Shown: positions 17,168-19,178 of the stretch, in pieces
Position numbering within the stretch: position 1 is the first letter of the stretch
How the letters are laid out: each line of letters begins with the position of its first letter
From: a virus
Reading direction: 5' to 3' (one strand)
Length of the DNA stretch: 28,222 nucleotides
Virus record (IMG/VR): IMGVR_UViG_3300025325_000116
Span: 1 to 28,222 of that record
Position numbers and translations under genes: made by a program
Notes under the pieces: model-generated
Database searches by the model: none
What the model was told of the DNA's origin: nothing
The model's input: only the letters and a program-made list of their open reading frames with translations

Positions 17168-17336
17168 GCGGGCCCTCGTTCTCAACATGCAGCGCGCGCT
17201 TGCATCGCTCGCAGAACCACTGCCCGGAGATGGGCGGGCCGTCTCGCCTCCACGAGAACGTGAAGACGGCCAGCTTGTGTCCGAACACGCGGCAGACCGT
17301 TGCTTCGACGAGGGACTCCTCGGGGTCGAATATCAT
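17154..17336 (-). CDS. small zinc-finger-like protein between terminase and portal, 60 aa
   Basis: ATG 17336 overlaps the terminase nuclease stop (ATGA); the stop at 17154 lies inside the start of the portal gene. TVCRVFGHKLAVF and WFCERCKRALH give C...H...C-x-x-C, a pattern that I know from small proteins encoded beside phage terminase genes. It probably binds one zinc ion. The function is unknown. Confidence 0.6.
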   Translation of the reverse strand: MIFDPEESLVEATVCRVFGHKLAVFTFSWRRDGPPISGQWFCERCKRALHVENEGPHAPA

Positions 17337-18316
17337 CCCACCATGCTCCGTCGATACGTCCCCACGGGTTGACCCTTCGAGGCGGCGATCGCCTGTTTGC
17401 GCCACCAGTCGAACGTCGCCGGCTGCGCCTTCGGCTTCGCGGCGCTCGGCGTCGGCGGGAAGCGCTGGAGGAACATCTTGAGCCCGTCCCAGGCGTGATT
17501 GTGCTTGTCGACGAGCACCTCGGAGGGGTCGCGCGTCAGCGCCTGCACCTCGCTCAGATCCTTGTACTTTTGCACGCCCAGCTCGCGGATCAGGTGCGGA
17601 CACTCCGTGGTGATCCGGTAGCGTGGCTTCTCGGGGTCGGCCCACAAGGTACCGATCAGCCACTCGACCACCGTGGTATCGCCACCCCGCTCGCCGCGCT
17701 CGAAATGCACGCCCTCGCGCGCGAACAGATCGGCGATCGACTTGTTCGGCTCGTCCTTCATCGGCTGGTCCTCGGCCCACATCGAGGGATCGGCGATCTT
17801 GATCCGCAGCGCCTCCGCGAACGGATTGCCTGGCCAGCGCAGGCGCGACGGTTCGATCGACGCCTCCGGCCGGCGCGGCAGTACGACGTCCTGCCCCTTG
17901 AGGATGCGCGCGATGTAGGACACGGGCACACGGTCGGCGTAGAACTCCCACAGCGTGATGATCTGTCCGTCGCCGTTGATACCGTGTACGTGGAACGCGG
18001 CCGGATTGTTCCAGCCGTGATCGTAGGACCCATAGAGCTGGTAGCCCGTAGGCGCAAAGGGCTGGCAGACGATCGGGCCTTGCTTCCACGTCTCCCACTC
18101 GGGGAACGCCTTGGCGCCGCCGAAGGCGCCGTAGTCGATCTCCATCTCTCGTTTCCACCGAGGAGACGCGACGCCACCCGCGTAGCCGGAGAGCGCCTGC
18201 TGCAGCCACGCCTCGCCGGCCACGGTGCCTGGCCGCTTGTCGGGGTCGGCCGAGTAGTGGACGCGCAGCACCGGCACGTCGCCGGGCACCACGCGAGCTG
18301 AGAAGCCGGGGATCAC
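17333..18316 (-). CDS. large terminase, nuclease subunit (separate gene)
   Basis: A 327-residue protein with a GTG start overlapping the stop of the ATPase gene (GTGA). It opens at the point where one-piece large terminases enter the linker before the nuclease (VLRVHYSADPDKRPG, then WKREMEIDYGAFGGAKAFPE). RNase H-like catalytic residues are visible: D99 in YGSYDHGWNNP, D176 in IKIADPSMW and D277 in NHAWDGLKMFL. It would cut concatemeric DNA during packaging. All expected acidic residues are present, so it appears functional although the polypeptide is separate from its motor domain. Confidence 0.85.
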   Translation of the reverse strand: MIPGFSARVVPGDVPVLRVHYSADPDKRPGTVAGEAWLQQALSGYAGGVASPRWKREMEIDYGAFGGAKAFPEWETWKQGPIVCQPFAPTGYQLYGSYDHGWNNPAAFHVHGINGDGQIITLWEFYADRVPVSYIARILKGQDVVLPRRPEASIEPSRLRWPGNPFAEALRIKIADPSMWAEDQPMKDEPNKSIADLFAREGVHFERGERGGDTTVVEWLIGTLWADPEKPRYRITTECPHLIRELGVQKYKDLSEVQALTRDPSEVLVDKHNHAWDGLKMFLQRFPPTPSAAKPKAQPATFDWWRKQAIAASKGQPVGTYRRSMVG

Positions 18317-19080
18317 GCCGCGTCCGCCGCGTTCACGATACTGGCGAACGCGCCCTGGCCGGCCGAGGAGAACGCGATCAACTGCCCGCCTCCCTGGACA
18401 GCCGGCAAGACCGCGGTGTAGGCGGCGTCGAACTCCGGCTGAAACGCACACTCGTCCGACGCCACCACGCTCGGGTGGTTCGACCGGATGATGTCGCCGC
18501 CCTGCGCGATCCCCCAGATCTGCGAGCCGTTGGTGAAGTACACACGCCCGAAGGCGCCCGAGCGCGGCCACGCGGTCATCCGCAGGTGCTGGGGCAGGTG
18601 GCTCTCCATGAAGCTGATCCGGCCGATATGTGGCTCCTTGACGAACACGAGCTGGGCGGCGTCGTCCTCCGTCTTGCTCTGCACCATCAGCAGCTGGTGC
18701 TCGAACGCACGTGCGCGCCAGAGCAAGTAGCCGCACGTGAGGTTGGTGGCGAAGACGTCGCGCGACTTTTCGATGAACAGAATACCCGTGCGGTGCATCA
18801 GCAGCAGCATCGGGAGCGAGACGCCGGCGTCAAGGGCGTGCCGCGCGTCCTCGGGGCTCATGAGACGACCGCTCACCAGCATGCAATCCAGCATCGCGCG
18901 CAGATAGGGAATACCGGGGAAGGGCTTGACCGGGTTGGTGGCGTCGTGCTCGTCTTTGGATTTCACCAGGCCGGCGTCGAAGAGGAAGTAATGCGCATCG
19001 CGCCGGCAGCGCTCGGCCTCCATCGCATGTCGCGCGCGCAGGATCGCCGCGGGAGGCTGGGGACTCAGGGCCCGCCCCAT
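18313..19080 (-). CDS. large terminase, ATPase subunit (separate gene)
   Basis: A 255-residue protein with ATG 19080 preferred. ARHAMEAERCRRDAHYFL and LVKSKDEHD precede the motor core. The Walker A position holds EKSRDVFATN (residues 104-113), lacking the classical G-K-T/S. SVVASDE (204-210) is Walker B with its Glu, and LIAFSSAG (234-241) is the coupling motif. VYFTNGSQIWGIAQGGDIIR is also typical of terminase motors. The reading frame stops right after the motor, at SIVNAADAA, and the nuclease starts in another frame. It powers DNA translocation into the head through the portal. Confidence 0.85.
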   Translation of the reverse strand: MGRALSPQPPAAILRARHAMEAERCRRDAHYFLFDAGLVKSKDEHDATNPVKPFPGIPYLRAMLDCMLVSGRLMSPEDARHALDAGVSLPMLLLMHRTGILFIEKSRDVFATNLTCGYLLWRARAFEHQLLMVQSKTEDDAAQLVFVKEPHIGRISFMESHLPQHLRMTAWPRSGAFGRVYFTNGSQIWGIAQGGDIIRSNHPSVVASDECAFQPEFDAAYTAVLPAVQGGGQLIAFSSAGQGAFASIVNAADAA

Positions 19081-19178
19081 CGCTGCCGGATCACGCGCCG
19101 CACGGCCCACCCCTGCCAGAGCAGGTGTAGGAAGATCCTGACCCGCATATAGACCCGATACCACCAGAAGACCTCCAT
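19065..19178 (-). CDS. 37-residue aromatic/basic micro-gene
   Basis: The frame runs from ATG 19178, seven bases after the stop of the Gly/Ala-rich protein, to TGA 19065, overlapping the terminase start by 16 bases. The peptide MEVFWWYRVYMRVRIFLHLL plus QGWAVRRVIRQRW is full of Trp, Tyr, Phe and Arg, like a short membrane or interfacial helix. It fills the only gap between two real genes. No strong ribosome-binding site is visible, so this could also be an untranslated spacer. Confidence 0.4.
   Translation of the reverse strand: MEVFWWYRVYMRVRIFLHLLWQGWAVRRVIRQRWGGP

Follow-up and report, generated by a model that had tools for sequence, protein, structure and literature searches.

Separate genes for the ATPase and nuclease parts of a large terminase in an IMG/VR virus and its relatives

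The window, that is, the whole stretch of DNA analysed, is a single IMG/VR viral record of 28,222 bases in which two genes on the minus strand were found to carry the parts of a large terminase (TerL). The motor gene comes first on that strand (18313-19080) and, according to its ORF and translation, encodes an ATPase core (ASCE, NsubI) of 255 aa with a likely ATG start at 19080. The nuclease gene comes after it (17333-18316, minus strand) and encodes 327 aa, assigned from the ORF and from profile and fold matches to a lid/linker and an RNase H-type nuclease. The two genes have the four bases GTGA in common (18313-18316, minus strand), where the motor stop TGA (18315-18313) overlaps the nuclease start GTG (18316-18314). 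Separate ATPase and nuclease genes joined by such an overlap had been described in an earlier note on this DNA, together with the retention of Walker B and the coupling motif FSSAG in the motor half and of the acidic residues D99, D176 and D277 in the nuclease half, and these observations were all confirmed by the reading of the junction and by the conservation of the residues given below. The nuclease start in the window is not preceded by a good Shine-Dalgarno sequence (GGCGGAC), so that translational coupling at this point is only inferred. A short ORF of 37 aa (MEVFWWYRVYMRVRIFLHLLWQ..., 19065-19178, minus strand), possibly encoding a small membrane protein, was also observed directly upstream of the motor start and overlapping it.

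The Walker A position of the motor protein is occupied by KSRDVFAT (18745-18768, minus strand), with K105, S106 and R107 invariant in 28 homologues, and Walker B by VVASDE (18451-18468, minus strand), with D209 and E210 invariant in the 28 homologues. The coupling motif FSSAG (18358-18372, minus strand) lies 14 codons before the motor stop and aligns to residues TTT 285-287 of the T4 protein. When searched against PDB, the motor profile matched T4 gp17 residues 101-302 (E 3e-18), and the AlphaFold (AF2) model of the motor (pLDDT 92.9) had T4 gp17 as its top fold match in PDB (E 2.8e-10). The P-loop ASCE core with Walker A, Walker B and coupling motif that is required of a TerL is consequently present in the motor half. 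In the motor half of one relative (L030, 3454-4956), the sequence just before the Walker B acids was seen to be interrupted in frame by about 280 aa (CLGPETKV...SHN, followed by SDE); this insert resembles a complete intein with a LAGLIDADG-type segment, with the Pfam Intein_splicing match below the cut-off.

In the nuclease protein, the catalytic aspartate D99 (18020-18022, minus strand) was found to be invariant in 30 homologues, and D176 (17789-17791) and D277 (17486-17488), on the same strand, at least 90% conserved. The nuclease profile matched the D6E TerL in PDB (E 1.5e-12) as well as the SPP1 and P22 nucleases, and the best fold matches of its AlphaFold (AF2) model (pLDDT 85.9) were the D6E terminase and the P22 terminase nuclease, so the requirement for an RNase H-type nuclease with three acidic residues is also fulfilled. 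The N-terminal stretch of about 90 aa (18047-18316, minus strand) was assigned by hhalign to the T4 gp17 family as the ATPase lid (NsubII) and linker; its most conserved motif is HYSADPDK (18236-18259, minus strand), in which Y21, A23, D24 and K27 are invariant in 30 homologues. The lid expected between core and nuclease thus exists, but on the nuclease polypeptide.

The position of the cut was mapped with a profile of 14 one-piece homologues aligned against T4-type terminases (hhalign probability 99.7, E 1e-25). The junction falls near T4 gp17 residues 302-305, just past the coupling motif, and the nuclease protein aligns, over its first 65 or so residues, to positions of about 304-362 in gp17. 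Subdomain II of gp17, which we take to comprise residues 1-58 and 314-360, and the hinge, presumably near 355-361, would accordingly go with the nuclease. By this profile alignment, on which, and not on a solved structure, the lid assignment rests, the cut is placed between the ATPase core and the lid, with lid, hinge and nuclease sharing one polypeptide. The earlier note had put the motor stop exactly in the linker between ATPase and nuclease, which did not hold, since the alignment places the stop before the lid and well before the hinge. The motor tail after the coupling motif has a median length of 14 aa in split loci, indicating a cut site that is largely uniform across the clade.

Neither half of the window terminase was matched by Pfam, matches in PHROGs were weak, and a tblastn search of 50,697 phage records with either half gave no match at 1e-5; relatives, among them the Betaproteobacteria contig JACQGO010000170 (L112), were therefore drawn from public viral contigs and bacterial MAGs, by searches with each half and with an alignment. 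Profile HMMs were built from these relatives and both halves were mapped in every locus. A total of 115 distinct motor and nuclease pairs was obtained, of which 100 are separate genes (28 adjacent, 47 separated and 25 reversed, with the nuclease upstream of the motor) and 15 a single frame. As sampling depended on similarity to the query and near-copies were removed only in part, these values are counts and not frequencies. Separate genes are the rule in this clade (100/115 pairs). Core, lid and nuclease on one polypeptide, as in a standard TerL, are found neither in the window nor in these 100 pairs, and the homology of the halves to TerL makes this a split form of TerL and not a standard one-piece member. 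For this clade, the statement in the earlier note that large terminases of this type are normally one protein is thereby corrected. More distant isolates, found with other members of the clade, were one-piece where checked (Rollin, Hodr, HTVC103P, CV-1-33, RM378 and others). Of the 24 nearest distinct relatives (at least 42% identity in the nuclease), eight presented an overlap-type junction as in the window, 15 carried inserted sequence, which in two of them is an HNH endonuclease gene, and one (L003) was fused. The search for the same two-gene arrangement in related contigs, which the earlier note had proposed as a check, was thus answered positively by L002 and by most close relatives. In the literature searched, which was limited to open-licence papers, the phrase "split terminase" was not encountered and no split lineage was found to be described, and a description elsewhere is possible.

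The junctions of the relatives were found to vary, with the forms GTGA, ATGA, TAATG, TGATG, TAGATG and a longer overlap. L002, which is 80% identical and comes from another metagenome, has the junction ATGA, with ATG in place of GTG, and the GTGA/ATGA junction recurs in L002, L137 and L139. Genes of HNH_3 homing-type endonucleases lie exactly between the halves in L133 (3384-3818) and L143 (4529-5014), with the ATG start on the motor stop, and the other inserts are small ORFs, most of which overlap the motor stop by an ATGA or GTGA at their start. The reversed-order lineage forms one clade in the tree, and the gene before the motor in this lineage is a small terminase (Terminase_2, PF03592, E 1.8e-12); in L015 (7090-8354), for example, the order is nuclease, an unknown gene of about 213 aa, small terminase (PF03592) and motor. 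In L043, L044 and L180 the nuclease is in the frame of the motor after TAG followed by ATG or GTG, and read-through of the stop would give a fused protein.

Comparison of the window with L002 gave dN and dS values of 0.13 and 0.89 for the motor (dN/dS of about 0.15) and 0.14 and 1.16 for the nuclease (about 0.12). By this estimate both halves are under purifying selection, in agreement with the absence of decay claimed in the earlier note, and the frame of the third-position changes switches at the junction, from that of the motor gene to that of the nuclease gene. A Shine-Dalgarno-like motif was detected before the nuclease start in 15 of the 28 adjacent loci (2.6 expected from phase-matched positions inside motor genes), the window being among those without a clear motif. 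Additionally, motor and nuclease distances were correlated in 51 split representatives (r 0.83, permuted maximum 0.18), as expected of partners inherited together. A second large terminase was not found in the window or in 13 other split viral contigs, a search limited by the fact that phrog_2 misses some terminases and that the records may be fragments.

The fused and split states require at least five changes on the family tree, three of them forced by supported branches, and the fused L003 sits among split relatives, suggesting that fission, fusion and insertion have occurred repeatedly. Whether the ancestral state was split or fused was not resolved, the trees being unrooted or weakly rooted. 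Homing endonucleases are a possible origin of the split, given the HNH genes of L133 and L143, but such an origin is not claimed here, since the inserts are for the most part unrelated small ORFs.

A single-base assembly or sequencing error in a gene that is truly one piece had been named in the earlier note as the rival to a real two-gene terminase. The evidence on the window junction comes from sequence comparison without raw reads, and the published split terminase of phage phiPDS1 does have such a look, its length and that of the intact gene in a relative with 90% identity being one base apart. Nevertheless, an error is highly improbable here in view of the recurrence of the GTGA/ATGA junction in three relatives, one of them with a different start codon, and of relatives with whole genes between the halves or with the halves in reversed order. 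The pattern of a broken or mis-assembled TerL, with one-piece close relatives and a single-base difference, was not encountered; the relatives are split, their junctions are varied and only 1/24 is one-piece. The refuting condition of the earlier note, a one-piece gene in all close relatives, was thus not fulfilled, and the two-gene reading is supported. Programmed ribosomal frameshifting, yielding a fused TerL besides or instead of two proteins, is possible in principle, the nuclease frame being open upstream of the GTG in the window, and yet it was judged very unlikely. It would call for a conserved offset and a slippery site, and neither was observed: the final 90 nt of the motor gene are free of X_XXY_YYZ heptamers in the window and in five relatives, and all three frame offsets between nuclease and motor are present (2, 1 and 0 in 18, 7 and 3 adjacent loci, respectively, with 2 in the window). 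The enrichment of Shine-Dalgarno motifs at the nuclease start also argues against it, and a single frameshift cannot join halves that have genes such as HNH_3 or Terminase_2 between them, which rules out joining in most relatives.

Decay of the terminase of a defective virus finds some room in the fact that the contig is a 28 kb fragment without a measured virion, but it is scarcely credible with the low dN/dS values of both halves, with all the catalytic residues kept and with an arrangement that recurs in many metagenomes. The same can be said of the rejoining of the halves by an intron or a split intein; the intein-like insert of L030 is complete and lies in a motor half, whereas an intron cannot be accommodated in a 4-base overlap and the termini at the junction (NAADAA-stop and VIPGFS) are unlike those of a split intein. 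A further alternative is that there is no single motor, and that the motor protein (TerL-N) packages DNA alone while the nuclease protein (TerL-C) acts only at initiation and termination with its own stoichiometry. The ATPase and nuclease domains of T4 gp17 are each active when separated (PMC3012670), and the two genes are often distant or reversed, which would allow separate expression. This alternative was considered unlikely, since the lid is placed on the nuclease protein and the ATP site of TerL-N would be incomplete without it, and since the parts of the T4 protein show no translocation once it is split at the hinge and the distances of the two halves are strongly correlated.

The preferred reading, to which we give a probability of roughly 0.8, is that TerL is encoded here by two adjacent, separately translated genes whose products most likely dock into the usual ring. 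TerL-N would be the ATP-burning core with Walker A, Walker B and coupling motif, and TerL-C would comprise the ATPase lid, the hinge and the RNase H-type nuclease. Ribosomes ending TerL-N would restart on TerL-C at the GTGA overlap, by which the two halves are proposed to be made together. Docking most likely takes place between TerL-N and the lid of TerL-C, across the ATP cleft, and the docked pair would then assemble on the portal into a TerL ring of the usual kind. The T4 model assigns the role of engine to subdomain I, that of transmission to subdomain II and that of wheel to the C-domain (PMC9958956, PMC3012670); in these terms, the "transmission" (lid) of the present terminase would remain in one covalent chain with the nuclease domain that handles the DNA, and the "engine" alone would be a separate subunit. 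It counts against this reading that the motor and the nuclease could act at different stoichiometries. Reinitiation, docking, ring assembly, activity and DNA translocation are all inferred, with no biochemistry, proteomics or isolate for the family. Thus, of the two-subunit motor arising from a real fission that the earlier note had envisaged, the two genes are real and the assembly of the motor remains an inference. The occurrence of a one-piece gene in the close relative L003 indicates that the split is not obligatory.

A broader proposal is offered only tentatively, namely that a large clade of uncultivated tailed viruses uses a motor with a detachable engine, in which a stand-alone core docks on a lid-nuclease subunit, the boundary between core and lid is a reused break point, and the subunits can be separately dosed, rearranged around the small terminase or possibly exchanged between lineages. 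According to packaging models, movement driven by ATP hydrolysis in the core is passed to the lid and from there to the nuclease domain with its DNA, and a natural cut one step before the hinge, repeated and retained, represents a natural test of how force passes to the DNA. A separable core and lid-nuclease would permit the mixing of mutants, the setting of ratios and the testing of which covalent link is needed for force transmission. There are also consequences for annotation, the one-piece TerL being the usual marker gene of tailed viruses and neither half being matched by Pfam here.

Among known systems, the Parabacteroides phage phiPDS1 was published with a split large terminase, for which its authors suspected assembly or the genetic code (PMC10773633). 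It was evaluated as a cultured example of the split in the window and was rejected, as its terminase belongs to an unrelated family (phrog_38), is cut after the lid, unlike in the window, and is not split in relatives. The phiPDS1 locus (L200, 23502-25054) and that of PD491P1 (L209, 1894-3447) differ in length by one base at 90% identity, and PD491P1, which is 97% identical to phiPDS1 in the nuclease half, has one terminase gene. Judged by this comparison of sequences, phiPDS1 has the look of a broken or mis-assembled terminase, and the window appears unlike it. The terminase coding sequence of herpesviruses (UL15/UL89) is also interrupted in the genome (PMC6466031), but, unlike in the window, it is spliced at the RNA level into one protein.

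A closer parallel is found in Podoviridae sp. ct2G2228 (MW202785; L208, 2962-4594), a circular podovirus genome from Manatee Spring with two CDS, each of which carries the annotation "large terminase protein". The motor of this genome ends just past CTFTPL and its nuclease gene opens with the lid, a small ATGA-overlapping ORF lying between them. The family is split in 7/7 scorable members, including six relatives (L211-L215 and L217), with an ATGA overlap, a short gap or a small ORF at the junction and, as in the window, two genes cut just past the coupling motif. No discussion of this split was found in the literature searched. The motor of MW202785 has a classical Walker A (NRVGKT) and gave no match to the window motor profile, which makes it a different terminase family. 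It probably represents an independent split at the same site, although on sequence evidence a shared ancient split followed by motor replacement is not excluded.

The terminases of D6E, SPP1 and P22 (PDB 5OE8, 2WBN and 4DKW), to which the window nuclease was found to be closer than to that of T4 in the profile search, share with it the RNase H-type nuclease and the conserved acidic residues; they are, however, single polypeptides with a different ATPase type. T4 gp17 (PDB 3CPE and 2O0H) resembles the window in its ATPase core fold and motifs and has an alignable lid segment, but it is one polypeptide of 610 aa, whereas the window terminase is cut between core and lid. When T4 gp17 was cut at the hinge, the ATPase and nuclease activities were kept and translocation was lost (PMC3012670, PMC9958956), which fits selection for another cut site in the family of the window.
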